Notes under the pieces: model-generated
Seen by the model: the letters and a program-made list of their open reading frames with translations, nothing else
What the model was told of the DNA's origin: nothing
Databases searched by the model: none
Shown: one piece after another, positions 4,520 to 63,268 of the stretch
How the letters are laid out: each line of letters opens with the position of its first letter
Position numbering within the stretch: position 1 is the first letter of the stretch
Program-made: the position numbers and the translations under genes
Assembly: GCA_034620365.1 (NCBI GenBank)
Contig: JAQGEQ010000300.1
Span: forward strand, 62,001-126,000
Source of the DNA: Pegea sp. RAD2-039
Lineage: Eukaryota; Chordata; Thaliacea; Salpida; Salpidae
DNA length: 64,000 nucleotides
Direction: 5' to 3'

Positions 4520-4591
4520 CTCCCCGTCGGGGAATCGAACCCCGGTCTCCCGCGTGACAGGCGGGGATACTCACCACTATACTAACGAGGA
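4520..4591 (-). tRNA. tRNA-Asp(GTC), copy 1
   Basis: A 72-nt cloverleaf beginning TCCTCGTTAGTATAGTGG with anticodon GTC at residues 34-36, T-arm GGTTCGATTCC, acceptor strands TCCTCGT/ACGGGGA and discriminator G. This is the standard eukaryotic tRNA-Asp sequence and has internal A and B boxes. It is second in the pair, 8 nt after tRNA-Ile. Confidence 0.97.
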
Positions 4592-4599
4592 CAAGAACA

Positions 4600-4673
4600 T
4601 GGCCAGTACGGGGATCGAACCCGCGACATTCGCGTTATTAGCACGACGCTCTAACCAACTGAGCTAACCGGCC
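4600..4673 (-). tRNA. tRNA-Ile(AAT), copy 1
   Basis: A 74-nt tRNA beginning GGCCGGTTAGCTCAGTTGG, with anticodon AAT (residues 35-37), anticodon stem TCGTG/CGCGA, T-loop TTCGATC, acceptor GGCCGGT/ACTGGCC and discriminator A. It is first in the Ile-Asp pair. Compared with the other copies its spacer to tRNA-Asp is 8 nt, not 9. Confidence 0.97.
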
Positions 4674-5014
4674 ACGACAGATAATCTCAAATTTGTTATT
4701 TATTCCAAATATTTTTACTTTTATTTGAAACTTATTCTTTCTAGGAAATCAAATCGAAAAGTTGAAATTATTTTCTTAAAGTTTCTGATTTTATTCAATT
4801 TAAAATATTTTTAAGTGACATAAATAAAGAATTATAAGTTTAATAATTACATATATTTTATAGGAAGTAGATATCTTTATATTATTGAGACAATCTATTT
4901 TACTAAATAATATTTTTGAAGTTTATCTTATTCTGTTTCTTAATACTAAAATATTTCTAATTTATTTTTCAAATTTTATTGAAATCATCAAATCATTGTC
5001 GATAATTATGAACA
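4674..5014. other. AT-rich flank upstream of the tRNA pair
   Basis: Sequence conserved in every T block, beginning AAATTTGTTATTTATTCC. It contains no gene that I can see. As it lies 5' of tRNA-Ile it would hold any upstream Pol III element. Confidence 0.5.
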
Positions 5015-5541: not shown

Positions 5542-5846
5542 ATAAAATAATTAAACTTTGAATTAACTAATTTAATAAGTTCAATCTGCTTTGAATATTT
5601 TACTTCTTTACGTTCTTACGTTCGAATTTCTTTTTTAAATATAAACTATTTAATCTGCTGTTTAAAATAAAACAAAAACTTGATAAAATCATAAATATTT
5701 TACAAAGAATAACATTTATTTGTAAACGAGAAATCCATTTACAAACAACAATTAACTCGACAAAACTTCTGAAAATACAAGAAGTTTGTTTATTTGTTTA
5801 TCAGCAGATATACAAAAAATGTTTCTAATTCAGTTCCATCATTCAA

Positions 5847-8800
5847 CTACATCTTCTGAAAATGAAAAATTGAATAAATAAACAGAAGTTTTATTTTCAG
5901 TTAAAATTAAAAGAAATTTTATAAAATGTTTTAAATTGTTTTTTAATTGCTAGAATAAATTTTCACAAATATAAGGCTTCCAAATTAATATAATTTTAAA
6001 ATAAGTAGATCATATAAAATATCAATTTTTAATTTACATTTTCTTACGCATCCAAAAGTAAAAACTCGAATCAGAAAGTTTCTAAGTATCTTCTTTTTCT
6101 GCAAAATAATTCATTAAATTTATTATTTGACTTATTTCATGTTAGAAAAGCAAATATTGTTAATTTAGAAAAATGAAATTCAAAGAAATCAAAAATCTTT
6201 GCATAGAAATTAACTAATTTAATTTTCTTTAATTTATATTTAACATCATGTATTAGTATCAAGTTTTATTGTATAGTGTTATTATAAAATATTTTAATTT
6301 ATATTTAACATCATGTATTAGTATCAAGTTTTATTGTTTAGTGTTATTATTAAATATTTTAATTTATATTTAACATCATGTATTAGTGTCAAGTTTTATT
6401 GTATAGTGTTATTATTAAATATTTTAATTTATATTTAACATCATGTATTAGTCTTCACTTACAGATAATTTTTTGATGGCATCTTTCTTGATTGTGTTAA
6501 CTACGTTGGCCTGTATTGAACAATTTACTACTTAATTTGAGAAACATCAAATTTGAATATAAATATTAACTTATTAACAATAAATTCAATCAATTTTATA
6601 TCTAATTAATAAATATAAATTAAATGACAAAACTTACCGGTCTGCTTTCAACATTTATATTCTTAGGTTTTTCATCTGGGATATTTTGAGCCTGAATAAA
6701 ATCGATTAAGATTTATATGAAGGTGGAAATAAAAATATTAATTTCATTTCGAAGACATACTTTGTAAAAGTTGTCTAAAGTAGTGACAATAATTTTATTA
6801 GTTTAATTTTCTTACTGAAATATTAAATAGAATTAATAATTAAATCAGATTAAAACTTATCAAGTAAAAGTAATATAATATCAACATTAAATCACAACTA
6901 ACTGGTTTGCTTTCAACATTTTGAATATTTTTATTATCATCTACGCTTTGCTTCTGAAAAATTAAAATAATAATTATTCTTTTTTGCAAACACTAGATTA
7001 AAAACAGCAGAATTACAAACATTTAAATATTAAATAATATTTTCTTTTAAAATTCAAAAATTTTACTAAAAATGAGAATTAGTTTGATTAATTTAACAAC
7101 AAATTGAAGTTAAATAAAAAATTTAGATCAGTAAAAATTATTTCAATTATTTTAATTGAAAGAAAACTATTTTGTATTTAATTTAAATAATTCTTCAAAA
7201 CAAAAGAAATTAGGTTTACATCAAATTAATATTTACCAAAACTGGATTCACCAAATTATTGCTGGTTTCTCTGCTATCAGTTTCCTAAAAATCACAATTT
7301 TATCTTTTATCTTTTGAAAGTAGCAAAAATGAAACTAATTATTTGATATTTTTACAAGATTATCAACTATTTAATTTAATAATTATAACTTGGAATAAAA
7401 TTATAACTAAAAAAGTATATATTAAACTTAATAAACAAAATGGCTAATTATTTAAATCAAAAAACTGACATTCAATCTTAATTTAAAGTAAACTAAACTT
7501 AAAATATTTATTTCTTAACACATACTAGCAGAAAGAAATATATTTTTATGTGTTTGAAATATTTTATTTGAATTTTTTATTTTGTGTCTCTGTATAATTG
7601 TTATAATATTTTGGTCTTAGAAAAACTTATAATATTATTATTTTATACAATAAAAGCGAACGATACTCAAATTAGACAAATGCAAGTGAAGCAGCAAAAG
7701 AAGTAATATTTTGTTTCACAACAATTATTAAAATCAATTTAACAAACAAATGATAACTTGGTAATAGTCTTACCATCGAAGATACTGATGTAAGTGAAGA
7801 CGTCTCACTTGTATTATATTCTATATTGTCCTGTTACAAATAAATGATTTAAATGAAAGTTTATATTATATTTATTTTATAATTAAGTTTTAAAAATCTA
7901 ATCTCACCATTAAACCATTTTTATTCTCGTTTATTTTGGCCAATTCTAAAACTGCCTCAATAACCTTAAATAAAATAATTTTAAATTAGAATCAAGAACA
8001 GACTGAAATTAGAAGAAACAGAAACTCACGCTGGAAGCTATCGAATCATCATCATCTTCCGAATCAGACAACTGAAAGATATTTTTATGTTTAGATTTTC
8101 TACTTCTACTTTAATTATTTTGTTGTAAAAGTATCGAAACTTTGATAAATATTTGATGTTAAACTGATTTAAATTTAGTATGACCATTATTATTTTATTA
8201 AAAGTTAATTATTAAAAAGTATCCTTTTTTAATATATATAGAAATTAAATAAATATCTTTATAAGTTTTGATATTTTTTATATAATTTATATCAAAGGTA
8301 AATCTTTACAATTTCATTTTCTTCTTTAATAATTTCAACAACTGATGAGGTTTTCTATAAGAAATTGAGTTAAACAAAAACTGTAATAACTTATTCAGTC
8401 AACTGTTATCAATTATTAATTTACATTTAAGTATAATTAAAGATAAATCAAATAATTTCGGATAAAATGCTGCAAATCTATTTACAAATCAGTCATAAAA
8501 CTACTACAAAAGACAAGCAAGTGTTATCAGTAAAGAAAATGTTGAATTAACTCACTGTATTGCAGTCAATATCATTTTCAACAGATTCTCCAACAACAAC
8601 TGAATTAACAGCTGAAAATAATTTCAATTTTGTATTAAGATTTAAAATTCTACAATTTAAATGACAACATAAACAAAATCATAATCATAAAGTAACAAGT
8701 TTAAAAAATCAGCTTAAATTCAATAATTCCGAAAAACAACAAAATTTTGTCTGCTACACTTACTTAAGTGCTTCATGTATTCCAACTAAAAATAAATCAA

Positions 8801-10375
8801 TAAATTAATTTTGCATATTAACAGAATCCCTAAATTATATAAAGTAATTATTCAAAGATTTATTGAGTTAAACAACTAAATGAACTTAAAAAATAAATAT
8901 TTAGAATTTTAAAAACAGTTTTTAGCGGAATAATCAATTGATATTTAAAATAAATCAATTTACCAACAAACATTTCCATTGTTGCAGGTTAAAGATATTT
9001 CGTTCCAAGAATTCTAAAATATTTTATATGTTAATGTAAGAAGTTAGAATCAATTAATTCTCTAACCTGAACATTCTTTTTCTTTAAATTTACCTTAAAA
9101 CAAAAAATTTAGTTTTAAAAACTGATTATCAGTTGCATTAAGACATTTAATTTAAAATATATTCATTTAAAACTAAAAGTAAACTTACCGAACATTGATA
9201 TTTCAAATATCACTAATTTTGGCTGAAAACGTTGAAAAATTAGTTAATTTAAACAAAGCAAGCTTGTTATTTATTTTATAATAGTTATTTAAAAGTGATA
9301 TTAATAAAGTTAACAAGTTTATTTACTTACCAGTTGGAAATATAATTCGTTTAAATGTAGGTGATTCACTTCATATAAGTGAACTTCCATAGTATGATCT
9401 GAAATCAAAATAATAATATTTACTCATGAACTACAAAGTGTTAATGTTACTTGTAATTTATTACAAGGTTAAAAAAGAAAATGTTAGATTGAAAAATACT
9501 TACCAAGTAAGTCTAGTCGCTTATTCATCTCGAAAAATAAATAATTCTATCTGATGAAAAGATATTTGTAAATAGCAAGACATAAAATTGATTTTGACAA
9601 CTACTTTTTAATTATAAAGTTTTAAAATTAACTTAGTTAGTTTTAACGATAAAAGCTATTTAATGTATTCTGATATTTTTGCCGATTTTGAAATAACAGC
9701 AAACTAAAACTACTTATTAACATTTGAAAGTATTCAAGGAAACAATTTGAGATAACTAATAGTTTTGTTTGCGATTTCAAAATAGCTGAACCAAATATTA
9801 AAATTAAATAGAGTAATTGCATAATTTCCATTTAAATTATAATATAAAGTATAAATCGATATTAATTTATTCAGTAACTATCTAAATTAATAAATTAATC
9901 ATGACTATTTCATAATTCTCAAATATGATTTGAAACTTTAAAAGATTTACTTATTTATTTTAATTTAATTAAGTTTTAAAAGAACGATGTACAAACCTCA
10001 ATAAAGTAGACAATTAAAAGAAAAACTTTTTTACAAGTGAGTTATGAAAAATTGGTTATTACGTCATAAATGCTAGTATTGTTGTCAAAATAATTCAAGT
10101 TAGCTCGTTATTAACATTAAAAAATTAGTTATCTTGATTAATTGAATATTTATTTATCTTTCAGTGAAATCATTTTTAAAAAATCGTTTTAAACAACTCA
10201 TTAACCAAAACTCAAAAACATTTTTCTAAAATTATTTGATTAAATAACCTAAAGTGAAGTACTACAATTCTCTCATAATAATAATTAGTAAAAACAAAAC
10301 TAATAATGAATTTACAAACAGTTAGTTGAAGAGCTTACTTCTAATCTTAAGATCGCTGGTTCTTAAACTTTTCAT
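5847..10375 (-). CDS. Microexon gene, copy 1 (17 exons, about 247-251 aa)
   Basis: Exons in 5'-3' order: 1a 10339-10375 or 1b 9504-9528 (each with its own ATG); 2 9331-9398; 3 9189-9222; 4 9067-9093; 5 8964-9013; 6 8764-8785; 7 8556-8611; 8 8310-8354; 9 8030-8071; 10 7908-7964; 11 7774-7830; 12 7237-7284; 13 6903-6953; 14 6638-6691; 15 6463-6510; 16 6048-6098; 17 5847-5855 with stop TAG. All introns are GT-AG, and phases agree at every join. Exon 1b to 17 total 744 nt. Exons 8-16 are all symmetric (0-0). Peptides include MNKRLDLL (1b), LSDSEDDDDSIASS (9), ETDSRETSNNLVNPVL (12), KQSVDDNKNIQNVESKP (13), AQNIPDEKPKNINVESRP (14). The N-terminal third is helical and hydrophobic, the middle acidic and Ser-rich, the C-terminus basic (KKKILRN). 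There is no signal peptide. AATAAA lies at 5715-5720. Family unknown. Evidence for coding: exon integrity across three copies against indel-rich introns. Confidence 0.8.
6229..6453. repeat. 65-bp intronic minisatellite, about 3.4 copies
   Basis: The anchor TAACATCATGTATTAGT recurs at 6241, 6306, 6371 and 6436, a period of exactly 65 bp. It lies in the intron between exons 15 and 16 and ends against exon 15. Copy number differs in the other two gene copies. Confidence 0.95.
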
Positions 10376-11847: not shown

Positions 11848-12352
11848 CGTCTCAGATTCTTCAATTTAGATACTTTAGAAATTCGACGGATTAAATGCGA
11901 CTTAATTCTTATTTTCAAAATTATCCACAATTTAGTTGACCCTTTAGTTTGATGATTTCTTTTCCATTGGTCCTTCTCTCAAGTTATATCAACTTAGACG
12001 ACACACATTACATCTTAATAAGCATATATCACCTGGTACATTAATCAGAGCGAATTTTTTCTCATACAGCACAATTAGTACATGGAACCAGCTGCCATCA
12101 GACATTGTCATGTCAAAATCACTCGCGTTGTTCAAAAAAAAAGCTGAATTGTTATAATATCGCCATCATTGCCATTTCTAAACTGTAAATTTTTCTCTTT
12201 TACAATACTATGATTCTGTGCAATCCTTCACTGTCATATGCTTTTTCGTTTACACGTCAAATAGATCTAATTTGTGAGAATGTGTGTTAGCGAGAGGTGC
12301 TCTCTTTAGGCACCCTCCTTCACATTTATTGTAATAAATAAATAAATAAATA
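11848..12352 (+). mobile_element. LINE 3' end with RT C-terminus and TAAA tail
   Basis: The plus strand reads RLRFFNLDTLEIRRIKCDL, then FFSYSTISTWNQLPSDIV, then SLALFKKK, the typical end of non-LTR polymerases (FFSxRxxxxWNxLPxxVV, FKxxLD). A 3' UTR with GAATGTGTGTTAGCGAGAGG and CACCCTCCTTCACATTTATTG follows, ending in a (TAAA)n tail at about 12335-12352. 5'-truncated, and fused to the tRNA flank on its left. Confidence 0.85.
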
Positions 12353-14857
12353 ATTTAATTTTATGTAAATCTTCTTATCAGACTAACTTTATATGCTTTA
12401 AAGATTTTAATCGAAATTAAACTGTAAAGCTTGAAATTGTCATTTATTTAAAATTAATTCAAGGTTATCGAAAATCGTACAGCTTTTAATTTTTTCTATA
12501 ATATGATTTACCGTCTACTGCAGACTAGTTTTATTGGATCATATTAAATTAATAATTACTAGTCTTTTTTTTTGCTTGCTTAAGATTAAAGAAATAATAC
12601 CAAATTTAAATTATGAAAACAATTAGTTTTTATTTTTAAATAAATTTTTTATTTTTATTTTTTTGAATTATAGAGATTTTAGGATAAGAAGAAGCCTTTT
12701 ATCAAGCGGTGACTTTTGAGAATGGCCGGTAGAACGACTAACACTTTGGTGCTGGCCCATCGGTCAAATCTGAAATAGAAGCAGTAAATTCAATGAAACT
12801 TATAGATGAGAACCAAGTGGAACCGATAAATGCAGCCTTTAAGAGAATGGCTTTCATAATGTCTTTAAATACTGAGGTAGCAACATTGAAGATTCTGAAA
12901 AATGTTAGATTGATTATGTGGATGAACAAATGTGGGAAAAAGGGGACATTATAGCCGGGCATTTCGAAAATAGTCTTTCTTAAAACAAATCGGACCAAGA
13001 TGGATGTCTCTATAGAGGGCAAAGTTTTTAATGCATTTATTAACACCAGATTCTTGAAGATCTACTAAAGCAGAAGATCAGAACTTAATGATTCACAAAG
13101 CTCGAGGTCAATTAAAGGTGACTCAGTTGTGCAATGTGTGGAAGATAATTGAATTTATCAGAGATAAACTCCATCTGCTATCTTTAATAAAGGTATTGAA
13201 TGGCAACCACCTCTACGAAATTTAGCAAAGCTAAGCTCCATCTGTTTAAGAACAGTATAACGTTAAAAAGCTGCTTTTCATAAAGAATTTTTTTCACAGA
13301 ACTTGGACCTTTTGTAAGATTCCTAAGAAAGTAGTGTTTGAGCCTATTTAATCTTCAAAAGGGGTTTTCTGGAAAGTAGTCGGGTATAAAAAGAAAAGAT
13401 ACAGATGCTGCAATGACTACCTAAACTTCTGAGGATGTATGCTCTTCTTAGCTTATTGAACCTAGATTGCTTATTATTGCGGAGTAGAGACTAAAAAGAA
13501 GGCTTAAACAAAACAGCATAATTTCTACTGCATCAGATATGAGATCAAGATAAAGATCCATATTTACTGGCTGCAATAAAGATAGCATTGTAGCCTTGAA
13601 TCTAGCTTTTGAAGAAAGTAGGTAAAAACCTAATGCTTTCAGTCTGCAGAACGAGAAAAAAACCTTTGCTGACTCTAATCAGAAATTATAAAACAAATCC
13701 AAGCATTCTAATCATGATGAAAAATAATTTAGAATTGTCGATTCAGTAAAAGATGAAAATTGAAAAAGGATGCTGATTTACGAGCTGCAAAAAAGGGAAA
13801 AAAGCAAAGCTAAGATTCTGCTAAAACTAAAGCTGTGACAAAGAGGAATTTGGAAGCAACCACAAGCCACAACTTGATATAACATCCGGTTGAAGACAGT
13901 GAACCGAAAAACTCACGGATCTTCATTTAGCTCTTTCTGCCGATTCATCAGTGATCGGATCTGGTAATGACATAATAGTTTTTGGCAAACAAAGTTTTGG
14001 TTGGAAGTTCATTTCATCACTCACTTCATCAATCTGTTTTAATTATAAGCTTCAGCTTAATACAATTATCTATGATTTCCATTTTCCGCTGAAATAATTT
14101 CTTATTTAAACTGTTGCACTGTTTTCACTAATTTGAAATTGGGTCATATCTAAAAATCGAATGACTTCATAGTTAGTTTGCAAAGGTGATTTGCTTCATG
14201 ATTGTATCCTGTCCATATCACCATTACTCCGTAACACATAAATGAAGCCTTAAAGACAATAGAGCTTGAACTACTTGAAAGACACAGCTTTGGAAGTTTA
14301 AGGCAAACATTTGTTTCAGATAAACGGAACTGATTATGTTTTTTAACTTAAAAAATATTATGTTTTGTTTTTGGATTGTAAAACAGCTTTTGCAGCTTAT
14401 ATATACGGCATAATAAAGAAATAATTAAGAGAATTAAACTAGTTGAAATATACATTAGAATATCAACGAAGAATAAAGTACAAAATTATTGATCGAGCTA
14501 GGAAAAGTTGTTTTAAGTAACTCTATACAAACTTTAAATATGAAATTAACATAATTAAAAAAAAAACTGTCTGCAAACTGTTAAAGCATTTTTATGTCTC
14601 AAGTTGTGCTCATACCAACCCTTTAAAACTTTGATAAATACAACCTCTTCGGAAAAACAAGTTGTATAGGATTTTATTTATTCATTTGTTTATTTCTTAC
14701 ACCGAACGTTATAAGGGGTGTATGAAACAACCATTTATTCTTAACACATGTTTTCAAAATAACTATAGTATAATAAAAATAAAATATTGGTAAGGATGGA
14801 GATACCACTTGACAGTTCATCAGTCTCTATACAATATAGAAGTGCATAATTACATTG
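12353..14857. other. D block 1: decayed unique sequence between two LINE tails
   Basis: About 2.5 kb without a supportable gene. A minus-strand frame at 12738-13046 (102 codons, ending TDGPAPKC) has a counterpart at 56061-56318 but with indels in the 5' half, and no domain is evident. The block recurs as D2, D3 and D4. D2 and D3 lack about 620 bp equivalent to 12863-13485. Confidence 0.6.
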
Positions 14858-16677: not shown

Positions 16678-17931
16678 GGATGGAAATGACTTCCCTCAAG
16701 CTAGAATAGAAGAAAAAAAGCAAGAAAGACAAGAACTTGAAGGACAAGAACGAGAAAGACAAGGAAGAGAAGGACAAGGAAGAGAAGGACAAGGACGAGA
16801 AGGACAAGGACGAGAAGGACAAGGACGAGAAGGACAAGGACGAGAAGGACAAGGACGAGAAGGACAAGGACGAGAAGGACAAGGACGAGAAGGACAAGGA
16901 CGAGAAGGACAAGAACGAGAAGGACAAGAACGAGAAGGACAAGGACGAGAAGGACAAGAACTAGAAACACAAGAACTTGAAAGACAGCAATGGGAAATAC
17001 GAGAGTTTCAAAGCAAAGTGCTACAGATGCCACAACTTCACCTAAAAAGACAAAGACAACAGGAAATACAAGAACAGCAACTGCAAGAAAGACTACTGCA
17101 ACGACGTCTGTGGGATATACGAGCGTATCATCGACAACAGAATCTACAATTACAGCATCATCACCAACATAGACAAGAGAGACCAGAGCAACAACACCAA
17201 GAAGAACAACAACATTTGTGGAATATAAAAGAGTATCAAAGACAATTGATACAATTGCAACAAAGTTACCAACAAAGTCAACAACGTTATCGTGAAAGAC
17301 AAGAACAACCAGAAATACAAAAAGAGCAGCAGATGGAGCGGCAGATGCAACGAAATCTGTGTGAAATACAAGAGTGTCGACACATGTGCTACGATTGCAG
17401 CAACTGCAAGTACAACAAGAAGGACAACAGCAAGAAGGACAACAGCAAGAAGGACAACAGCGAGAAGGACAACAGCAAGAAGGACAACAGCAAGAAGGAC
17501 AACAGCAAGAAGGACAACAGCAAGAAGGACAACAGCAAGAAGGACAACAGCAAGAAGGACAACAGCAAGAAGGACAACAACAAGAAGGACAACAACAAGA
17601 AGGACAACAACAACAAAGTAGTAGGCAGGAAGCTGGACAAAAACAGCGGCAGGAACTACAAGTCTATCAACAATATGTACTACAATTACTACAACATCAC
17701 CTACAAAAACAAGAACAACAAGAAAGAGAAGAACAACGAAAAAAACGAGAAGAACAATAAATACAGCAACGTCATCGTGAAAGACGAAAACGACGAGAAA
17801 AAAAAGAACAGCAGAACCAGGAACAACAACTACAACAACTTCTTTTAAAAATACAAGAGTATCAACGACAACAAGAATTGATATTTCAACAACGTCACCG
17901 AGAAAGACAAGAAAACCAACAACAACAACTG
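16678..17931 (+). pseudogene. Gln-rich exon Q2 with 1-nt deletion and premature stop
   Basis: Acceptor CTAG at 16674-16677, then the DGNDFPQARIEEKK start. A 5' array GGACAAGGACGAGAA (GQGRE) at about 16760-16960 is longer than in Q1. One T is lost at about 17381 (GTCGACACATG, against GTCGACTACATG elsewhere), shifting the frame. In the homologous frame a stop TAA at 17758-17760 replaces an AAA lysine codon. The 3' end is of the second type: CAACTG|GTAACA donor at 17931/17932 in place of PEQQ arrays, and the S1 exon begins 619 nt later. Two independent lesions make it a likely pseudogene. Confidence 0.6.
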
Positions 17932-18550
17932 GTAACATTTAGTTTCACTTCAAATTGAATTATTCTTAAAAAATAAACAGATTTTTTAATTGGATTATTT
18001 CTTTAAACTTTCTGAGTTTTAAAGAATAATTATTAGAAATGTTTACTGCTAATTTGATATTTGTAAAATAAATCCAACTGTTTGTCTTGAATACTTATAC
18101 ATTTTTGTGTTTGCTTTTTATAGTTGTATCAGTATTGTTTTTTTTATAATAAAATATTATTATATTTTCAACTCTTTTAATTTTGCAGTTTAACTGATTA
18201 GAGTGATAATAGAATTTTAAATAAATACTGGAAAGTTATTTAAATTATTATTTTATTTATAATTTTCTGTTTACAAATTTTTTTAAGCCTTATTTTTTAT
18301 TAAACTAATTAACAGTTAGTATTTATAAATTGTAAACCTAAAAATTTAATTTGAAATATTTAATTAAAATAAATTATCTGAATATTTTAATCGATAGTAT
18401 TTTATAAGCTTATACGAACATGAATATTTTAATATATTTTCTTTTATTACCATTTATTACTTGCAATTATCGTTTCTAGCAACCTTCTATTGATTATTAT
18501 AAAATATAGTTCTTATATATTGATTAAATTAATTATTTATTCTTCTACAG
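17932..18550 (+). other. Intron between Q2 and S1
   Basis: Donor GTAACA and acceptor TTCTTCTACAG. The same 617-619 nt intron separates Q4 from S3 and Q5 from S4, where the joined frame is open (phase 0). Confidence 0.6.
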
Positions 18551-19138
18551 AACTTTAATTCAAACTTACTAATGGATTGCGATCAATTAATAAGACTATT
18601 GAATGTTTATTACCAAAAGGAGTCGTCGCCTGTCTTTGACATTTTTTATGCTTCTGATTGTACGTGGCAAATAAACCCACCGAGCAATAATCCTTTTTTT
18701 CTTGAAAAAGAAGAAATAAAAGTTTACCTTGAAAGAAATTCAGACAAAAGAAGTCAACCGCAGTTTTCATTAATTGCTTACAGAGATAATGTTGACAAAG
18801 GAATAGCTGTAGACCTTGTTGGATTGCGAGAAACTGAGTTTGGATTGACAGCCTTCCATGATTATCTTTATATTGAAAAACACAAGAGTCAATTGAAAGT
18901 AGTAGGTATGAGAAGTATTTATACTAAACGTATTGCTGATTTAAAAGTGGATCATTTGAAAGAGCACATTTTGTTTGAAAATGAAGTTGAAGAAGAAACA
19001 ACTGTTGAAGATGATGAAGGTAATTTGTTGGTTGGAAATTTACCTGATGATTGTAAGAAAGAGAAACTTAATGAACAATTTTCTTATTATTACCTTTTGA
19101 AATTTGTTTTTAAAAAAGTCATCATAAAAAGACTTTAA
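18551..19138 (+). CDS. NTF2-like plus partial RRM exon S1 (Rasputin/G3BP-like order)
   Basis: The ATG at 18572 gives 188 aa; the exon is open from the acceptor at 18550. Residues about 1-130 look NTF2-like: an initial helix ending in YYQKES, then FDIFY, a G-rich strand (AVDLVGLRE) and a final strand (KVVGMRSIYTKRI). An acidic linker (EVEEETTVEDDEG) and LLVGNLPDDCKKEKLNEQFSYY follow; this matches the RNP2 strand and first helix of an RRM (LxVGNLPxxxxxxxLxxxFxxYG). The remaining RRM is absent; the frame ends in KKVIIKRL. NTF2-acidic-RRM is the G3BP/Rasputin order, but identity to that family is my inference. The upstream partner Q2 is broken, so S1 may be silent or start at its own ATG. Confidence 0.5.
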   Translation, partial: NFNSNLLMDCDQLIRLLNVYYQKESSPVFDIFYASDCTWQINPPSNNPFFLEKEEIKVYLERNSDKRSQPQFSLIAYRDNVDKGIAVDLVGLRETEFGLTAFHDYLYIEKHKSQLKVVGMRSIYTKRIADLKVDHLKEHILFENEVEEETTVEDDEGNLLVGNLPDDCKKEKLNEQFSYYYLLKFVFKKVIIKRL

Positions 19139-21459: not shown

Positions 21460-24400
21460 CTACAGCTTCTGAAAATGAAAAATTGAATAAATAAACAGAA
21501 GTTTTATTTTCAGTTAAAATTAAAAGAAATTTTATAAAATGTTTTAAATTGTTTTGTAAATTGCTAAAAAAATTTCACAAATATAAGGCTTCCAAATTAA
21601 TATAATTTTAAAACAAGTAAATCATATAAAATATCAATTTTTAATTTACATTTTCTTACGCATCCAAAAGTAAAAACTCGAATCAGAAAGTTTCTAACTC
21701 TCTTCTTTTTCTGCAAAATTAAACATTAAATTTATTATTTGACTTATTTCATGTTAGAAAAGCAAATATTGTTAATTTAGAAAAATGAAATTCAAAGAAA
21801 TCAAAACTTTTTGTATAGAAATTAACTACTTTAATTTTCTTTAATTTATATTTAACATCATGTATTAGTATCAAGTTTTATTGTATATTGTTATTATTAA
21901 ATATTTTAATTTATATTTAACATCATGTATTAGTATCAAGTTTTATTGTATAGTGTTATTATTAAATATTTTAATTTATATTTAACATCATGTATTAGTA
22001 TCAAGTTTTATTGTATATTGTTATTATTAAATATTTTAATTTATATTTAACATCATGTATTAGTATCAAGTTTTATTGTATAGTGTTATTATTAAATATT
22101 TTAATTTATATTTAACATCATGTATTAGTGTTCACTTACAGATAATTTTTTGATGGCATCTTTCTTGATTGTGTTAACTACGTTGGCCTGCATTGAACAA
22201 TTTACTACTTAATTTGAGAAACATCAAATTTTAGTATAAATATTAACTTATTAACAATAATTTCAATCAATTTTATATCTAAATAATAATCATAAAATAA
22301 ATGACAAAACTTACCTGTCTGCTTTCAACATTTATATTCTTAGGTTTTTCATCTGGGATATTTTGAACCTGAATAAAATCGATTAAGATTTATATGAAGG
22401 TGAAAACAAAAATATTAATTTCATTTCGAAGACATACTTTGTAAAAGTTGTCTAAAGTAGTGACAATAATTTTATTAGTTTAATTTTCTTACTGAAATAT
22501 TAAATAGAATTAATAATTAAATCAGATTAAAACTTATCAAGTAAAAGTAATATAATATCAACATTAAATCACAACTAACTGGTTTGCTTTCAACATTTTG
22601 AATATTTTTATTATCATCTACGCTTTGCTTCTGAAAAATTAATATAATAATTATTATTTTTTGCAAACACTAGATTAAAAGCAGCAGAATTACAAACATT
22701 AAAATATTAAATAATATTTTCTTTTAAAATTCAAAATTTTTACTAAAAATGAGAATTAGTTTGATTAATTTAACAACAAATTGAAGTTAAATAAAAAATT
22801 TAGATCAGTAAAAATTATTTCAAATATTTTAATTGAAAAAAAACTATTTTGTATTCAATTTAAATAATTCATAAAAACAAAATAAATTAGGTTTATATCA
22901 AAATAATATTTACCAAAACTGGATTCACCAAATTATTGCTGGTTTCTCCGCTATCGGTTTCCTAAAAATCACAATTTTATCTTTTATGTTTTGAAAGTAG
23001 CAAAAATGAAACAAATTATTTGATATTTTTACAAGATTATCAATTATTTAATTTAATAATTATAACTTGGAATAAAATTATAACTAAAAAAGTATATATT
23101 AAACTTAATAAACAAAATGGCTAATTATTTAAATCAAAAAACTGACATTGAATCTTAATTTAAAGTAAACTAAACTTAAAATATTTATTCCTTAACACAT
23201 ACTAGCAGAAAGAAATATATTTTTATGTGTTTGAAATATTTTATTTGAATTTTTTATTTTGTGTCTCTGTATAATTGTTATAATATTTTGGTTTTAGAAA
23301 AACTCATATTATTATTATTTTATACAATAAAAGCGAACGATACTCAAATTAGACAAATGCAAGTGAAGCAGCAAAAGAAGTAATATTTTGATTCACATCA
23401 ATTATTAAAATCAATTTAACAAACAAATGATAACTTGGTAATAGTCTTACCATCGAAGATACTGATGTAAGTGAAGACGTCTCACTTGTATTATCTTCTA
23501 TATTGTCCTGTTACAAATAAATGATTTAAATGAAAGTTAATATTATATTTATTTTATAATTAAGTTTTAAAAATCTAATCTCACCATTAAACCATTTTTA
23601 TTCTCGTTTATTTTGGCCAATTCTAAAACTGCCTCAATAACCTTAAATAAAATAATTTTAAATTAGAATCAATAACAGACTGAAATTAGAAGAAATAGAA
23701 ACTCACGCTGGAAGCTATCGAATCATCATCATCTTCCGAATCAGACAACTGAAAGATATTTTTATGTTTAGATTTTTTACTTCTACTTTAATTATTTTGT
23801 TGTAAAAGTATCGAAACTTTGACAAATATTTGATGTTAAACTGATTTAAATTTAATGTAACCATTATTGTTTTATTAAAAGTTAATTATTAAAAATTATC
23901 CTTTTTAATATATAAAAAACTAAATAAATATCTTTATAAGTTTTGATATTTTTTATATAATTTATATCAAAGGTAAATATTTACAATTTCATTTTCTTCT
24001 TTAATAACTTCAACAACTGATGAGGTTTTCTATAAGAAATTGAGTTAAACAAAAACTGTAATAACTTATTCAGTCTACTGTTATCAATTATTAATTTACA
24101 TTTAAGTATAATTAAAGATTAATCAAATAATTTCGGATAAAATGCTAAAAATCTGTTTACAATTCAGTCATAAAACTACTACAAAAGACAAGCAAGTGTT
24201 ATCAATAAAGAAAATGTTGAATTAACTCACTGTATTGCAGTCAATAGCATTTTCAACAATTTCTCCAACAACAACTGAATTAACAGCTGAAAATAATTTC
24301 AATTTTTTATTAAGAATTAAAATTCTACAATTTAATTGACAACATAAACAAAATTATAATCATAAAGTAACAAGTTTAAAAAATCAGCTTAAATTCAATA

Positions 24401-26051
24401 ATTCCGAAAAACAACAAAATTTTTGTCTGCTACACTTACTTAAGTGCTTCATGTATTCCAACTAAAAATAAATTCATAAATTAATTCTGCATATTAACAG
24501 AATCCCTAAATTATATAAAGTAATTATTCAAAGATTTATTGAGTTAAACAACTAAATGAACTTAAAAAATAAATATTTAGAATTTTAAAAACAGTTTTTA
24601 ACGGAATAATCAATTGATATTTAAAATAAATCAATTTACCAACAAACATTTCCATTGTTGCAGGTTAAAGATATTTCTTTCCAAGAATTCTAAAATATTT
24701 TATATGTTAATGTAAGAAGTTAGAATCAATTAATTCTCTAACCTGAACTTTCTTTTCCTTTAAATTTACCTTAAAACGAAAAATTTAGTTTTAAAAACTG
24801 ATTATCAGTTGCATTAAGACATTTAATTTAAAATATATTCATTTAAAACTAAAAGTAAACTTACCGAACATTGATATTTCAAATATTACTAATTTTGGCT
24901 GAAAACAATAAAAAATTAGTTAATTTAAACAAAGCAAGCTTGTTATGTATTTTATAATAGTTATTTAAAAGTGATATTAATAAAGTTAACAAGTTTATTT
25001 ACTTACCAGTTGAAAATAGATTTCATTTAAATGTAGGTGATTCACTTCATATAAGTGAACTTCCATAGTATGATCTGAAATCAAAATAATAACATTTACT
25101 CATGAACTACAAAGTGTTAATGTTACTTGTAATTTATTACAAGGTTAAAAAAGAAAATGTTAGATTGAAAAATACTTACCAAGTAAGTCTAGTCGCTTAT
25201 TCATCTCGAAAAATAAATAAATCTATCTGATGAAAAGATATTTGTAAATAGCAAGACATAAAATTGATGTTGACAACTACTTTTTAATTATAAAGTTTTA
25301 AATTTAACTTAGTCAGTTTTAGCGATAAAAGCTATTAAATGTATTCTAATATTTTTGCCGATTTTAAAATAACAGCAAACTAAAACTACTTATTAACATT
25401 TGAAAGTATTCAAAGAAACAATTTGAGATAACTAATAGTTTTGTTTGCGATTTCAAAATAGCTGAACCAAATATTAAAATTAAATAGAGTAATTGCATAA
25501 TTTCAATTTAAATTATAATATAAAGTATAAATCGATATTAAGTTATTCAGTAACTATCTAAATTAATAATTTATTCAAGAATATTTCATAATTCTCAAAT
25601 ATAATTAGAAACTTTAATACATTTACTTATTTGTTTTAATTTAATTAAGTTTTAAAAGAGCGATGTACAAACCTCAATAAAGTAGACAACTAAAAGAAAA
25701 ACTTTTTTACAAGTGAGTTATGAAAAATTGGTTATTACGTCATAAATACTAGTATTGTTGTCAAAATAATTCAAGTTAGCTCGTTATTAACATTAGAAAA
25801 TTAGTTATCTTGATTAATTGAATATTTATTTATCTTTCAGTGAAATCAATTTTATAAAATCATTTTAAACAACTCATTAACCAAAACTCAAAAACATTTT
25901 TGTAAAAATATTTAATTAAATAACCTAAAGTGAAGTACTACAATTCTCTCATAATAATAATTAGTAAAAACAAAACTAATAATGTATTTACAAACAGTTA
26001 GTTAAAGAGCTTACCTCTAATCTTAAGATCGCTTGTTCTCAAACTTTTCAT
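21460..26051 (-). CDS. Microexon gene, copy 2 (17 exons, about 247-251 aa)
   Basis: Exons: 1a 26015-26051 or 1b 25180-25204; 2 25007-25074; 3 24865-24898; 4 24743-24769; 5 24640-24689; 6 24440-24461; 7 24231-24286; 8 23985-24029; 9 23707-23748; 10 23585-23641; 11 23451-23507; 12 22914-22961; 13 22580-22630; 14 22315-22368; 15 22140-22187; 16 21660-21710; 17 21460-21468 (AAG CTG TAG). Exon lengths equal those of copy 1 without exception. Differences are mostly conservative or silent: exon 2 NELYF to NEIYF, exon 4 KEKECS to KGKESS, exon 7 ESVENDI to EIVENAI, exon 11 Y to D, exon 12 R to G, exon 14 A to V and P to Q, exon 16 KKKIL to KKKRV. Exons 1b, 6, 9 and 10 are identical. All donors and acceptors are kept, so this copy looks intact. 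Exon 1a ends AGAG|GT, joining to exon 2 as IR-D-HTM. Confidence 0.8.
21838..22130. repeat. 65-bp intronic minisatellite, about 4.4 copies
   Basis: TAACATCATGTATTAGT at 21853, 21918, 21983, 22048 and 22113: one unit more than copy 1 at the same place (intron 15). Confidence 0.95.
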
Positions 26052-27933: not shown

Positions 27934-28455
27934 CGTCTCAGATTCTTCAAATTAGATACTTTAGAAATTCGACGGATTAAATACGAGTTAATTCGTATTT
28001 TCAAAATTATCCACAAATTAATTGACATTCAGTTTGATGATTTCTTTTCCTTTATTCCTTCCCTCAAGTTATATCAGCTCAGACGACACCCATTACACCT
28101 TAATAAGCATATATCACCTGGTACGTTAATCAGAGTAAATTTTTTTTCATATCGCATAATTAATACATGGAACCAGCTGCCATCAGACATTGTCATGTTG
28201 GAATCAATCGTGTTATTCAAGCAGAAGTTGAACCGTTTTAATATTGCGAATTTCTAAACAGTATTGTTTTCTTTTTTTAATATTACTATAATTCTATGTA
28301 ATTGTTCACTGTTATATGTTTTGAGGACTACTGAAATGTCATGTGTTACATCTTTTACTTTCTATATTTTTGACTATATAGATGTTATTTGTGAGAATGT
28401 GTGTTAGCGAGAGGTGCTCTCTTCAGGTACCATCCTTCGCATTTATTGAAATAAA
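27934..28455 (+). mobile_element. LINE 3' end (T block 4) with tail
   Basis: RT C-terminus with STWNQLPSDIVMLES, then a longer 3' UTR (GTTTTGAGGACTACTGAAATG) than at 11848, and an AATAAATAAATAAT tail at about 28440-28455. The UTR difference suggests two LINE subfamilies or a deletion. Confidence 0.8.
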
Positions 28456-30099: not shown

Positions 30100-30329
30100 A
30101 TTTTATTTATTGAAATGAATAAATAAACTATATGGAGGGTGTCTGAAGAAAACACATTCCGCTAACACACATTAATACAACATCACAAATAATATGTATT
30201 AAATTAGAAATATAGAAAGCAAAAGATGTAACACATGGCATTTCGGTAGTCCTCAAAGCATACAACAATTGTGTGAAATGTTAATAATATAAAAAAATGA
30301 AAACATCACAGTTTAGAAATGCAGTGTTG
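30100..30329 (-). mobile_element. Inverted LINE 3' end fused to Q3
   Basis: Same 3' UTR as 14858-15268 but cut after CAGTGTTGG at about 30329, where Q-exon sequence (ATACGAGAGTTTC) begins. The polymerase part present at 43020-43225 is missing. Confidence 0.8.
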
Positions 30330-32081
30330 GATATACGAGAGTTTCAAAGCAAAGTGCTACAGATGCCTCAACTTCACCTAAAAAGACAAAGACAACAGGA
30401 AATACAAGAGCAGCAACTGCAAGAAAGACTACTGCAACAACGTCTGTGGGATATACGAGCGTATCATCGACAACAGAATCTACAATTACAGCATCATCAC
30501 CAACATAGACAAGAGAGACCAGAGCAACAACAACAGGAAGAACAACAACATTTGTGGAATATAAAAGAGTATCAAAGACAATTGATACAATTGCAACAAA
30601 GTTACCGACAAAGTCAACAACGTTATCGTGAAAGACAAGAACAACAAGAAATACAAAAAGAGCAGCAGATGGAGCTACAGATGCAACGAAATCTGTGTGA
30701 AATACAAGAGTGTCGACTACATGTGCTACGATTGCAGCAACTGCAAGAAGGACAACAACAAGAAGGACAACAGCAAGAAGAACAACAACAAGAAGGACAA
30801 CAGCAAGAAGGACAACAGCAAGAAGGACAACAGCAAGAAGAACAACAACAAGAAGGACAACAGCAAGAAGGACAACAGCAAGAAGAACAACAACAAGAAG
30901 GACAACAGCAAGAAGGACAACAGCAAGAAGGACAACAGCAAGAAGGACAACAGCAAGAAGGACAACAGCAAGAAGGACAACAGCAAGAAGGACAACAGCA
31001 AGAAGGACAACAGCAAGAAGGACAACAACAAGAAGGACAACAACAAAGTAGTAGGCAGGAAGCTGGACAAAAACAGCGGCAGGAACTACAAGTCTATCAA
31101 CAATATGTACTACAATTACTACAACATCACCTACAAAAACAAGAACAACAAGAAAGACAAGAACAACAAGAAATACAAAAAGAGCAGCAGATGGAGCTAC
31201 AGATGCAACGAAATCTGTGTGAAATACAAGAGTGTCGACTACATGTGCTACGATTGCAGCAACTGCAAGAACAGCAAGAAGGACAACAACAAGAAGGACA
31301 ACAGCAAGAAGAACAACAACAAGAAGGACAACAACAAGAAGGACAACAGCAAGAAGAAACAGCAAGAAGGACAACAGCAAGAAGGACAACAGCAAGAAGG
31401 ACAACAGCAAGAAGGACAACAGCAAGAAGGACAACAGCAAGAAGGACAACAGCAAGAGGACAACAGGACAACAGCAAGCAACAGCAAGGACAACAGCAAG
31501 AAGGACAACAGCAAGAAGGACAACAGCAAGAAGGACAACAGCAAGAAGGACAACAGCAAGAAGGACAACAGCAAGAAGGACAACAGCAAGAAGGACAACA
31601 GCAAGAAGGACAACAGCAAGAAGAACAACAGCAAGAAGGACAACAGCAAGAAGGACAACAGCAAGAAGGACAACAGCAAGAAGGACAACAACAAAGTAGT
31701 AGGCAGGAAGCTGGACAAAAACAGCGGCAGGAACTACAAGGCTATCAACAATATGTACTACAATTACTACAACATCACCTACAAAAACAAGAACAACAAG
31801 GAAGAGAAGAACAACGAAAAAAACGAGAAGAACAAAAAATACAGCAACGTCATCGTGAAAGACGAAAACGACGAGAAAAAAAAGAACAGCAGAACCAGGA
31901 ACAACAACTACAACAACTTCTTTTAAAAATACAAGAGTATCAACGACAACAAGAATTGATATTTCAACAACGTCACCGAGAAAGACAAGAAAACCAACAA
32001 CAACAACAACAACAACCAGAACAGCAACCAGAACAACAACAACAACAACCAGAACAGCAAGAAAGGCGAGAGCAACCATAA
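30297..32081 (+). CDS. Gln-rich long ORF Q3, chimeric start, internal duplication (594 aa)
   Basis: Open from ATG at 30297 to TAA at 32079-32081. The first 11 codons (MKTSQFRNAVL) are antisense LINE 3' UTR; the Q module starts at IREFQSKVLQMPQLH. No Q1-type acceptor or E/R repeat precedes it. The order is: helical module, QEGQQ array, SSRQEAGQKQRQEL module, a second partial helical module (EIQKEQQMELQMQRNLCEI), a second array, a second SSRQEAG module, then short PEQQ and QERREQP. Between about 31345 and 31490 the frame runs as TARRTT and returns after an irregular stretch (RGQQDNSKQQQ), that is, two lesions cancel. Likely coiled coil or disordered. The presence of a promoter is not shown. Confidence 0.5.
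   Translation: MKTSQFRNAVLDIREFQSKVLQMPQLHLKRQRQQEIQEQQLQERLLQQRLWDIRAYHRQQNLQLQHHHQHRQERPEQQQQEEQQHLWNIKEYQRQLIQLQQSYRQSQQRYRERQEQQEIQKEQQMELQMQRNLCEIQECRLHVLRLQQLQEGQQQEGQQQEEQQQEGQQQEGQQQEGQQQEEQQQEGQQQEGQQQEEQQQEGQQQEGQQQEGQQQEGQQQEGQQQEGQQQEGQQQEGQQQEGQQQEGQQQSSRQEAGQKQRQELQVYQQYVLQLLQHHLQKQEQQERQEQQEIQKEQQMELQMQRNLCEIQECRLHVLRLQQLQEQQEGQQQEGQQQEEQQQEGQQQEGQQQEETARRTTARRTTARRTTARRTTARRTTARRTTARGQQDNSKQQQGQQQEGQQQEGQQQEGQQQEGQQQEGQQQEGQQQEGQQQEGQQQEEQQQEGQQQEGQQQEGQQQEGQQQSSRQEAGQKQRQELQGYQQYVLQLLQHHLQKQEQQGREEQRKKREEQKIQQRHRERRKRREKKEQQNQEQQLQQLLLKIQEYQRQQELIFQQRHRERQENQQQQQQQPEQQPEQQQQQPEQQERREQP
30746..31694 (+). repeat. 15-bp tandem arrays in Q3 (two blocks)
   Basis: Blocks at about 30746-31048 and 31270-31694, built from CAAGAAGGACAACAG with GAAGAACAACAA variants. 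Separated by a non-repetitive module that is itself duplicated. Confidence 0.95.
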
Positions 32082-32769
32082 AGACAATCAAACTTAAAAT
32101 GATAACTAATGCTTAGAAATACATTTTTATTTATTTAACAACAACAACTGGTAACATTTAGTTTCACTTCAAATTGAATTATTCTTAAAAAATAAACAGA
32201 TTTTTTAATTGGATTATTTCTTTAAACTTTCTGAGTTTTAAAGAATAATTATTAGAAATGTTTACTGCTAATTTGATATTTGTAAAATAAATCCAACTGT
32301 TTGTCTTGAATAATTATACATTTTTGTGTTTGCTTTTTATAGTTGTATCAGTATTGCTTTTTTTATAATAAAATATTATTATATTTTCAACTCTTTTAAT
32401 TTTGCAGTTTAACTGATAAGAGTGATAATATAATTTGAAATAAATACTGGAAAGTTATTTAAATTATTATTTTATTTATAATTTTCTGTTTACAAATTTT
32501 TTTAAGCCTTATTTTTTATTAAACTAATTAACAGTTAGTATTTATAAATTGTAAACCTAAAAATTTAATTTGAAATATTTAATTAAAATAAATTATCTGA
32601 ATATTTTAATCGATGGTATTTTATAAGTTTATACGAACATGAATATTTTAATATATTTTCTTTTATTACCATTTATTACTTGCAATTATCGTTTCTAGCA
32701 ACCTTCTATTGATTATTATAAAATATAGTTCTTATATATTGATTAAATTAATTATTTATTCTTCTACAG
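32082..32769 (+). other. Hybrid 3' flank of Q3
   Basis: The first 50 nt match the flank after Q1/Q6/Q7 (GACAATCAAACTTAAAATG). At about 32131 the sequence jumps to the Q2-type end (CAACAACAACTG|GTAACATTTAG) and continues as the Q-S intron. Q3 therefore stops before the donor and cannot read into S2. Confidence 0.7.
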
Positions 32770-33297
32770 AACTTTAATTCAAACTTACTAATGGATTGCG
32801 ATCAATTAATAAGACTATTGAATGTTTTTTACCAAAAGGAGTCGTCGCCTGTCTTTGACATTTTTTATGCTTCTGATTGTACGTGGCAAATAAACCCACC
32901 GAAAAATGCTTCTTTTTTTCTTGAAAAAGAAGAAATAAAAGTTTACCTTGAAAGAAATTCAGACAAAAGAAGTCAACCGCAGTTTTCATTAATTTCTTAC
33001 AGAGATAATGTTGACAAAGGAATAGCTGTAGACCTGGTTGGATTGCGAGAAACTGAGTTTGGATTGACAGCCTTCCATGATTATCTTTATATTGAGAAAC
33101 ACAAGAGTCAATTGAAAGTAGTAGGTATGAGAAGTATTTATACTAAACGTATTGCTGATTTAAAACTGGATCATTTGAAAGAGCACATTTTGTTTGAAAA
33201 TGAAGTTGAAGAAGAAACAACTGTTGAAGATGATGAAGGTAATTTGTTGGTTGGAAATTTACCTGATGATTGTAAGAAAGACAAACTTAAAGAATAA
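32770..33297 (+). CDS. NTF2-like plus RRM-start exon S2, truncated
   Basis: The ATG at 32791 gives 168 aa. Same layout as S1, with PKNASFFLEKEE in the loop where S1 has PSNNPFFLEKEE. CAA to TAA at 33295-33297 ends the protein at KDKLKE, inside the first RRM helix. S3 has the same stop; S1 and S4 do not. The partner Q3 ends before its donor, so S2 is probably an orphan exon unless it uses its own ATG. Confidence 0.4.
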   Translation, partial: NFNSNLLMDCDQLIRLLNVFYQKESSPVFDIFYASDCTWQINPPKNASFFLEKEEIKVYLERNSDKRSQPQFSLISYRDNVDKGIAVDLVGLRETEFGLTAFHDYLYIEKHKSQLKVVGMRSIYTKRIADLKLDHLKEHILFENEVEEETTVEDDEGNLLVGNLPDDCKKDKLKE

Positions 33298-33543
33298 TTT
33301 TCTTATTATTACCTTTTGAAATTTGTTTTTAAAAAAGTCATCTTAAAAAGACTTTAACTCTTGATTCATCTTGATAAAACTAAGTTTATTTTGCGTGAAA
33401 GACTTTAGATTTTGTATTGTATATGCCGTATCTTTGATGACAAGGTGGGATTTTAATAAACAAATAAACAATTCTCATGCAATTGCTTATAATCAAATCT
33501 TGCTGCTAGTATTATTGAAATGAATTTTAAGCTTTTAATTAAG

Positions 33544-38900: not shown

Positions 38901-39173
38901 CTTGAAATTGAGAAACACAAGAGTCAATTGAAAGTAGTAGGTATGAGAAGTGTTTATACTAAACGTATTGCTGATTTAAAAGTGGATCATTTGAAAGAGC
39001 ACATTTTGTTTGAAAATGAAGTTGAAGAAGAAACAACTGTTGAAGATGATGAAGGTAATTTGTTGGTTGGAAATTTACCTGATGATTGTAAGAAAGAGAA
39101 ACTTAAGGAACAATTTTCTTATTATTACCTTTTGAAATTTGTTTTTAATAAAGTCATCATAAAAAGACTTTAA
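35926..39173 (+). CDS. Q5-S4 spliced gene: E/R-rich + Gln-rich + NTF2-like + partial RRM
   Basis: Exon A 35926-37967 begins after TTAATTAAG and is open in one frame for 2 kb: a long EREGQ/EREREGQ array (35930-36490), two helical modules and two QEGQQ arrays. The first ATG in frame is 36543 (475 codons to the donor CAACTG|GTAACA at 37967/37968). Exon B 38586-39173 joins in phase 0 (SFYSNLL before the S ATG at 38607) and gives 195 aa, reaching KVIIKRL like S1 because the CAA codon is kept. Total about 670 aa from ATG 36543. S4 differs at DKSITIDLVGL and DYLEIEKH. This is the most complete Q-S gene in the window. The RRM is only its first strand and helix. Confidence 0.55.
35930..36490 (+). repeat. 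E/R-rich tandem array at the 5' end of Q5
   Basis: GGACAAGAACGAGAA units with 6-nt CGAGAA additions, arranged in a higher-order repeat that includes GGACTAGAACGAGAAGG. All length changes are multiples of three, so the EREGQ frame stays open. Confidence 0.9.
36945..37655 (+). repeat. 15-bp tandem arrays in Q5 (two blocks)
   Basis: Blocks at about 36945-37212 and 37425-37655 separated by the SSRQEAG and QMERQMQRN modules. The internal duplication is similar to the one in Q3 but without frameshifts. Confidence 0.95.
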
Positions 39174-44670: not shown

Positions 44671-45344
44671 GGATGGAAATGACTTCCCTCAAACTAGAAT
44701 AGAAGAAAAGAAGCAAGAAAGACGAGAACTAGAAAGACAAGAACGAGAAAGACAAGGAAGAGAAGGACAAGAACGAGAAGGACAAGGACGAGAAGAACAA
44801 GAACGAGAAGGACAAGAACGAGAAGAACAAGAACGAGAAGGACAAGGACGAGAAGGACAAGGACGAGAAGGACAAGAACTAGAAACACAAGAACTTGAAA
44901 GACAGCAATGGGAAATACGAGAGTTTCAAAGCAAAGTGCTACAGATGCCACAACTTCACCTAAAAAGACAAAGACAACAGGAAATACAAGAACAGCAACT
45001 GCAAGAAAGACTACTGCAACGACGTCTGTGGGATATACGAGCGTATCATCGACAACAGAATCTACAATTACAGCATCATCACCAACATAGACAAGATCAC
45101 CAAGAGAGACAAGAACAACAGTACCAGGAAGAACAACAACATTTGTGGAATATAAAAGAGTATCAAAGACAATTGATACAATTGCAACAAAGTTACCAAC
45201 AAAGTCAACAACGTTATCGTGAAAGACAAGAACAACAAGAAATACAAAAAGAGCAGCAGATGGAGCGGCAGATGCAACGAAATCTGTGGGAAATACAAGA
45301 TTGTAGACTACATGTGCTACGATTGCAGCAACTGCAAGTACAAC

Positions 45345-45550
45345 AAGAAGGACAACATCAAGAAGGACAACAGAAGGACAACAACAAGAAGGACAACAGC
45401 AAGAAGGACAACAGCAAGAAGGACAACAGCAAGAAGGACAACAGCAAGAAGGACAACAGCAGAAGGACAACAGCAAGAAGGACAACAGCAAGAAGGACAA
45501 CAGCAAGAAGGACAACAGCAAGAAGGACAACAGCAAGAAGGACAACAACA
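45345..45550 (+). repeat. 15-bp tandem array in Q6
   Basis: About 13 units with two out-of-frame deletions, as described for the exon. Confidence 0.9.
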
Positions 45551-63259: not shown

Positions 63260-63268
63260 CACAGAACA

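Follow-up and report, generated by a model that had tools for sequence, protein, structure and literature searches.

Introduction

Genes built entirely of micro-exons are best known from the effectors of parasites and herbivores, namely the micro-exon genes (MEGs) of schistosomes and the bicycle genes of aphids. Here we describe a probable gene family of comparable build in a chordate, the salp Pegea sp. RAD2-039. The window analyzed is a stretch of 64,000 nucleotides (nt), bases 62001-126000 of contig C171 (JAQGEQ010000300.1; 156,280 bases) in an assembly of 105.7 Mb and 387 contigs, and it carries three copies of a putative gene whose 17 coding exons measure 9-68 nt in the first copy.

About 80% of the coding sequence of MEGs lies in symmetric exons of 6-36 bp and the product is almost always secreted or anchored (PMC5825161). 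The salp gene resembles them in its very short, largely frame-neutral exons, its multicopy state, its rapid change and a cassette logic for making protein variants, and yet only 117 of its 744 coding nt (16%) are in exons of at most 36 nt, hydropathy indicates no signal peptide, and the host belongs to another phylum. Its symmetric exons, e4 and e8-e17, account for 489 of 744 nt (66%), while e1-e3 and e5-e7 are asymmetric. Bicycle genes have a mean of about 17 small exons, the internal ones nearly all in phase 2; they evolve fast, and sequence searches detect them poorly (PMC9168663). The salp gene shares with them the number of exons, the unusually small internal exons in a single phase, the fast evolution and the poor detectability by sequence search; unlike in bicycle genes, its tail exons e8-e17 are all in phase 0 and its N-terminal block has mixed phases. 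Bicycle proteins also carry CYC motifs and a signal peptide; no C-Y-C was found in the 247-residue salp protein when read by eye, nor a signal peptide by hydropathy. Membership in either class fails on the features tested, whereas the principle of frame-neutral micro-exon variation is alike. A sequence-only reading of this DNA had placed the gene in neither class, and we agree on the ground of gene structure only, not of sequence comparison with either.

Two further systems are close in other respects. The ampliconic testis genes of the Y chromosome are a known analogue of amplified, fast-evolving arrays (PMC7313670, PMC3403216). Such mammalian Y-type genes and the salp loci share tandem and inverted, closely similar arrays of fast-evolving multicopy genes. 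To our knowledge, micro-exon structure and variation in the number of exon cassettes are not part of the ampliconic class. The tunicate allorecognition protein BHF (Botryllus histocompatibility factor) is, like the product predicted here, intracellular with disordered regions, and its association with membranes through cysteines is reported (PMC12065747). Compared by description only, the BHF cysteines are within the first 50 residues whereas the salp cysteine in question is C-terminal, and that description does not present BHF as an amplified array (PMC12065747). Among the matches listed (titles and beginnings of abstracts) on tunicate micro-exons or micro-exon families we found no report describing the salp family, which is no proof of its absence from print.

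Results

The first window copy is at 10375-5847 on the minus strand and consists of 17 coding exons and an alternative first exon, e0. We number the exons e1-e17, e1 corresponding to exon 1b of the sequence-only reading, and call the window copies W1-W3. Each of the 18 blocks, 17 of which are used at a time, was found once in the stretch 5847-10375; the blocks are preceded by AG and followed by GT, e0 opening with its own ATG and e17 closing with a stop. That 17 blocks form one frame from ATG to TAG had been claimed before, and the chain could be rebuilt from the sequence with AG/GT borders: spliced, e1-e17 have a coding length of 744 nt and encode 247 residues, from ATG at 9528-9526 to TAG at 5849-5847 on the minus strand. 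Copies 2 (21460-26051, minus strand; 18 exons, every border AG/GT) and 3 (49166-54254, minus strand; 19 exons) have the same exon lengths with no exon indels and no in-frame stops, as had also been reported. Since splice sites are kept, exon indels in distant lineages are multiples of three and the expected stops are missing, we propose that the micro-exon set is a protein-coding gene family, and we put the probability that its anatomy and coding nature hold jointly at about 0.85.

The evidence comes from copies within and outside the window. Exon-by-exon reading was extended to seven more copies, namely W2, W3, three elsewhere on C171 and one each on C31 and C272, the last being a 15-exon form while the others carry the 17-exon chain. 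All 123 of their acceptors are AG, and of their 122 donors 120 are GT, the exceptions being GC in e0 of locus L012 and CT in e8 of W3, and the sole length changes are whole codons in e9. The frame is open in eight copies altogether (seven with 17 exons, L024 with 15), and parts of the chain are intact in loci on C90, C159, C70, C87, C165, C253, C26 and C35. When e1-e9 of distant copies were compared to W1, the splice dinucleotides were kept at 16/16 sites on C272, 14/16 on C26 and 16/16 on C35, while other intronic GT and AG dinucleotides were kept at 40/63, 37/63 and 41/63, respectively; for the closer C31 copy the figures are 22/22 and 93/111. The two exceptions on C26 are a GT that became GC and the e8 donor, which is off its reference place. 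Exon indels relative to W1 measure 3 nt on C272, 6 nt on C26 and 3+3 nt on C35, with none on C31, whereas the introns of C272, C26 and C35 have 14, 17 and 15 indels, most of which are not multiples of three. Neutral change simulated at the observed amount would leave about 4.2 stops where none is seen (P of none 0.009-0.014 per lineage, values that are not to be multiplied since the C272, C26 and C35 lineages share history). In addition, in nine loci of a second group, subfamily B, all 87 of the scored copies of e12, e13, e14 and e16, the only exons included, have AG-GT borders and no stop (ungapped matches of at least 60 nt and at least 80% identity). Of the nine B loci, five were examined for e15: in all five the copy closest to e16 is open and 48 nt long, and in all five the first cassette holds an e15-like exon that is diverged but likewise open and of 48 nt (ETAFEIFKRN...). 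Short partial e15 matches in three B loci showed no open AG-GT block. The 1-nt gap in the e13-e14 alignment of L024 is an end effect of the cut chosen, both exons being full length.

Not all that had been said of the window copies survived. As claimed, the three copies do not differ in the coding parts of exons 1b, 6, 9 and 10, but copy 2 has a one-base difference in the non-coding 5' part of 1b. Correct splice borders were found in copies 1 and 2; in copy 3 the e8 donor reads CT and not GT (52187-52186), and therefore its splicing after e8 is doubtful. Copy 3 also has an extra intact e12 at 50538-50491 on the minus strand, missing from the earlier exon list. The statement that introns differ by many indels was too strong, as over e1-e12 we counted 3 indels (3 bases) in 1759 and 1761 aligned intron nt of copy 1 against copies 2 and 3, respectively. 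The large intron differences among the window copies are due to a variable 65-bp tandem repeat before e16 (6228-6452 in the e15-e16 intron of copy 1; 3.5 units there, 4.5 in copy 2 and 2.4 in copy 3) and to the stretch round the extra e12.

The coordinates that follow are those of copy 1, minus strand. Exon e0 (10339-10375, 37 nt) starts with ATG and ends in phase 1; its splice to e2 would also keep the frame and give MKSLRTSDLKIR(N/D)HTMEVHL..., and therefore e0 and e1 can be alternative starts, as predicted from the frame. The e0 ATG was read in eight copies (W1-W3, L009, L010, L012, L014 and L026), and L011 has an e0 match, not itself read, among the loci matched by the exon search. Exon e1 (9504-9550, 47 nt) holds the start ATG and has a GC donor in both C26 copies. 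It is followed by e2 (9331-9398, 68 nt), the fast-evolving e3 (9189-9222, 34 nt) and e4 (9067-9093, 27 nt), e5 (8964-9013, 50 nt), whose 3' part codes for NLQQWK and is invariant in five aligned sequences, the highly conserved e6 (8764-8785, 22 nt; LEYMKHL) and e7 (8556-8611, 56 nt), the last exon of a fixed N-terminal block. As the phases of e1-e7 are unequal and only e4 has a length divisible by three, these exons must be joined as one block of 94 residues (282 coding nt). The tail e8-e17, in contrast, is made up of exons that are all multiples of three and in phase 0: e8 (8310-8354, 45 nt), e9 (8030-8071, 42 nt; acidic SDSEDDDD, with length changes of +3 and +6 among copies), e10 (7908-7964, 57 nt), e11 (7774-7830, 57 nt), e12 (7237-7284, 48 nt), e13 (6903-6953, 51 nt), e14 (6638-6691, 54 nt; 74% identical to e13 across 50 nt, NVESKP/NVESRP), e15 (6463-6510, 48 nt), e16 (6048-6098, 51 nt), which encodes the basic and hydrophobic C-terminus (KKKILRNFLIRVFTFGC in copy 1), and e17 (5847-5855, 9 nt), encoding K(M/L)-stop. 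Read from the sequence, an AATAAA at 5789-5794, minus strand, 53 nt past the stop, is a possible polyadenylation signal. Ordinary loci of the same genome look different: three arbitrary 10-kb stretches, a crude control that gives no exon-length distribution, have open reading frames (ORFs) of 70-235 residues, several of which are readable as conserved genes by eye, and a neighboring family has an open frame of 188 residues at 18572-19138.

Paralogues differ by whole tail exons, with the frame kept in the exons scored. Five of the seven further copies (W3, L009, L010, L012 and L014) carry e12 in duplicate, as does L024 within a larger cassette; eight of nine B loci contain the e12-e13-e14 set in triplicate, and L024 has it in duplicate. 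An exon search found neither e10 nor e11 in the subfamily B loci. The number of cassette repeats in the copies is 1-3, with some tail exons wanting. The C191 copy (L026) has, near 5522 in its tail region, an extra exon-like block with an AG acceptor; because of this block and the diverged e15-like exon of the B loci, the exon repertoire is larger than the 18 exons listed here.

A DNA search with e1-e9, in which all 27 first-look candidates were scored, found about 23 places with most of this block, in addition to fragments; part of these places were read in sequence. Six are on C171, three each on C70 and C272, two each on C90, C159 and C26, and one each on C31, C165, C253, C87 and C35. Among the matches listed, identity is 93-96% between subfamily B loci of different contigs and 82-83% between these loci and C191. 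Palindrome-like inverted gene pairs were seen at C31:152000-160000, C159:16000-35500 and C90:36000-54500, with arms that are 99.3% identical over 1.9 kb, 98.1% over 7.4 kb and 95.4% over 6.8 kb, respectively.

Constraint on the sequence differs along the gene. Over e1-e12 of the aligned copies, substitution in exons and introns is nearly equal: 0.063 vs 0.075 for C31 (e1-e12), 0.146 vs 0.145 for C272 (e1-e9), 0.170 vs 0.159 for C90 (e3-e9) and, in the first part of the gene, 0.029 vs 0.025 for window copy 2 and 0.025 vs 0.034 for copy 3. Later exons change more slowly than introns, with 0.033 vs 0.096 in e13-e17 of C31 and 0.095 vs 0.195 in e13-e14 of C272, and e13-e15 are slower in four of five other C171 copies (exons 0.013-0.020, introns 0.030-0.036), whereas in window copy 3 they are faster (0.039 vs 0.024). 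Pairwise ratios of nonsynonymous to synonymous substitution rates (dN/dS) are 0.18-0.97 among six C171 copies, 0.32-0.59 to C31 and 0.55-0.88 to C272, and the pooled ratio of the proportions of nonsynonymous and synonymous differences (pN/pS) to C31 is 0.51. The conserved part is the end of e5 together with e6 (NLQQWKCLLLEYMKHL), with pN of 0-0.024, while pN from e3 to early e5 is 0.26-0.30 between lineages. Positive selection on e3 to early e5 was considered and rejected, as pS in the same comparisons is 0.35-0.60. In e7, four of six pairs have pN above pS, but each of them shows just 0-3 synonymous differences, and we make no claim of selection. The predicted protein evolves fast under weak and patchy constraint. 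Equal rates in exons and introns had been named in the sequence-only reading as an outcome that would refute the gene. The near-equal rates over e1-e12 are not taken as doing so, since splice sites, frame and the absence of stops are kept beyond neutral expectation and the pooled pN/pS is 0.51. Of the earlier proposal of a real gene under constraint, the coding, tandemly amplified micro-exon gene is well supported, and the constraint is what had to be toned down.

The spliced protein and other family members (five members in one search) have no Pfam match above noise, and no relative of the spliced protein was found in the PDB. Weak Pfam lines were obtained for MAP_Futsch (E 0.049) and, in one of the five members each, for DUF1577 (E 0.032), DUF5470 and a zinc finger. 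HIV-protease matches in the PDB searches were dismissed as chance (E no better than 0.048, with domain i-E over 40). A likeness of the N-terminal block to PC4/Sub1, noticed by eye from a QW motif, was also rejected, as hhalign gave a probability of 2.1 over 11 columns against a two-sequence PC4 profile and there is no Pfam PC4 match. The highest 19-residue Kyte-Doolittle mean is 0.99 over the whole protein and -0.06 for the start from e1 (windows from residues 1-14; by hydropathy rather than SignalP, the e0 start being judged by eye), in line with the earlier statement that the protein lacks a signal peptide. As the maximum is low and the e1 N-terminus is not hydrophobic, a secreted or membrane-spanning product is unlikely by hydropathy. 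Residues 95-218 contain 25 D/E and 11 K/R, and the tail is rich in S and N; the last 30 residues have ten K/R, a short hydrophobic run and one cysteine kept in eight copies.

The array has repeated neighbors. An ORF of 168-188 residues (MDCDQLIRLLNVYYQ...) recurs on the plus strand of the window at 18572-19138 (188 residues), 32791-33297, 35172-35678 and 38607-39173; this family looks NTF2-like by eye and ends in a sub-threshold RRM start (E 0.055), a layout that is presumably G3BP-like. It has matches on C31, C309, C26, C194, C102 and C247, in part the contigs with the micro-exon genes. Very long ORFs rich in Q, E and G, at 1001-2969, 16701-17938, 30297-32091, 33535-34559, 36493-37994, 44694-46269 and 60245-61619, are composed of 15-bp and 33-bp tandem repeats (QEGQQ, EQQPEQQQQQP) in numbers that vary between units, and are open in several frames on both strands. 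Eight tRNA-Asp(gtc)/tRNA-Ile(aat) pairs run through the array on the minus strand, from 4520-4674 to 63188-63343; in the 20 loci examined, tRNA-Ile alone is present in four on C171, one on C102 and one on C247, and in none of nine subfamily B loci. The array units contain inverted repeats, 28045-28435 against 43235-42852 and 58601-58218 (76%), and 11856-12359 against 27330-26828 (88% identical).

Elsewhere in the genome, the telomere repeat is TTAGGG, which speaks against nematodes and arthropods as hosts; a genome search for COX1 had no match. Two domain matches on one strand of C14, GT2 (PF13632, 61.5 bits) and GH6 (PF01341; 27.5 bits genome-wide and 35 bits with the exon), lie within 2.6 kb, their starts 2.3 kb apart, and make up a locus of the cellulose-synthase type, with the domain pair of tunicate CesA. 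At L042 (G000:C42:53785-54357), three let-7 matches below the family cut-off and a fourth found by pattern adjoin HUWE1-like exons on the same strand, in a stretch of 50% G+C compared to 28-32% in the three arbitrary 10-kb loci. Vertebrate let-7f-2/mir-98 are also within HUWE1. A rotifer host (Brachionus) was considered and rejected in view of these hairpins and the GT2/GH6 locus, and the latter makes a tunicate very probable.

Discussion

The architecture suggests how variants could be made. The tail e8-e17 would act as a set of interchangeable cassettes, and unequal recombination between the repeats, perhaps along with alternative use of exons, would lengthen or shorten the protein in steps of 14-19 residues without a frameshift. 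The product would not be secreted; it would combine a conserved motif (NLQQWKCLLLEYMKHL), perhaps a helix, with an acidic, probably disordered tail. It is probably intracellular, and its basic-hydrophobic, cysteine-bearing C-terminus could perhaps tether it to a membrane.

As to function, the tandem and inverted arrays together with the fast evolution make a role in the germline our first guess, and an amplified, intracellular germline protein is the leading, albeit tentative, proposal. The arrays would then reside in a sex-linked or germline-selected region and encode a gamete protein, and amplification and palindromes would maintain the likeness of the copies through gene conversion. Tandem arrangement and inverted pairs with arms of 95.4-99.3% identity (C90, C159 and C31) speak for this, the protein changes fast, and C171, C31 and C26 carry the second repeated family too, with pieces of both on C102 and C247. 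Against it, such arrays can form on autosomes too, a family search did not find the second family on the contigs of subfamily B, and most tunicates are hermaphrodites that lack sex chromosomes.

Ranked second, and in our estimate unlikely, is a role in immune or allorecognition signaling, in which a tunicate-specific recognition or adaptor system would diversify its modular tail between copies and individuals. Fast evolution, gain and loss of exons and the many copies fit such a self/non-self system, and tunicates do possess in BHF an intracellular, partly disordered allorecognition protein (PMC12065747). On the other hand, the salp protein has no membrane span by hydropathy and no domain match.

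That the arrays are mainly pseudogenes or satellite-like relics, their frames open merely through recent duplication or conversion, seems improbable, and it is here that the observations unfavorable to a coding family have to be weighed. Over e1-e12, exons and introns have changed at nearly the same rate. Exons e1-e11 are missing from the seventh C171 copy (L011), and e1-e6 from both the C191 copy, whose e7 is also one base longer, and the C159 copy near 34.3-35.1 kb (L019); on C102, on C247 and in a second piece on C31 only 3' parts are present. The e8 donor is lost in window copy 3 and away from its reference place in the C26 copies, and in the middle B cassette, present in four of the five loci, the e15-like stretch shows in all four a 1-nt gap and lacks an open block with AG-GT borders. 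Owing to gene conversion, copies on the same contig are dependent evidence, and the exon borders are predicted from comparison between copies only. All these weigh against a coding family, and truncations, a lost donor and a 1-nt exon insertion are what decay would leave. However, lineages that are 14-15% apart in their exons have exon indels of 3, 6 and 3+3 nt compared to 14-17 intron indels, their splice sites are kept, no stop is found where about four are expected, and 87 of 87 scored cassette exons are intact. A secreted effector of the MEG or bicycle type, for which the many tiny and often symmetric exons, the copy number and the fast evolution would speak, is very improbable given a start unlike a signal peptide, a tail in phase 0 rather than 2, the small share of coding sequence in exons of at most 36 nt and a tunicate host.

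Returning to a coding family of micro-exon genes, it is conceivable, and we suggest it with considerable reserve, that the micro-exon-cassette architecture originated independently in a chordate and in a protein that is not secreted, with a fixed N-terminal reader and phase-0 tail exons that are gained, lost or perhaps alternatively chosen to give a germline- or individual-specific intracellular repertoire. The family would also be a warning that searches for genes by ORF length may overlook entire families. A tunicate case in which copies differ by whole in-frame cassettes would separate micro-exon architecture from the role of effector, and as the arrays hold natural variants with one, two and three cassettes, the question of why a gene should be built of micro-exons could be tested by comparing the copies.

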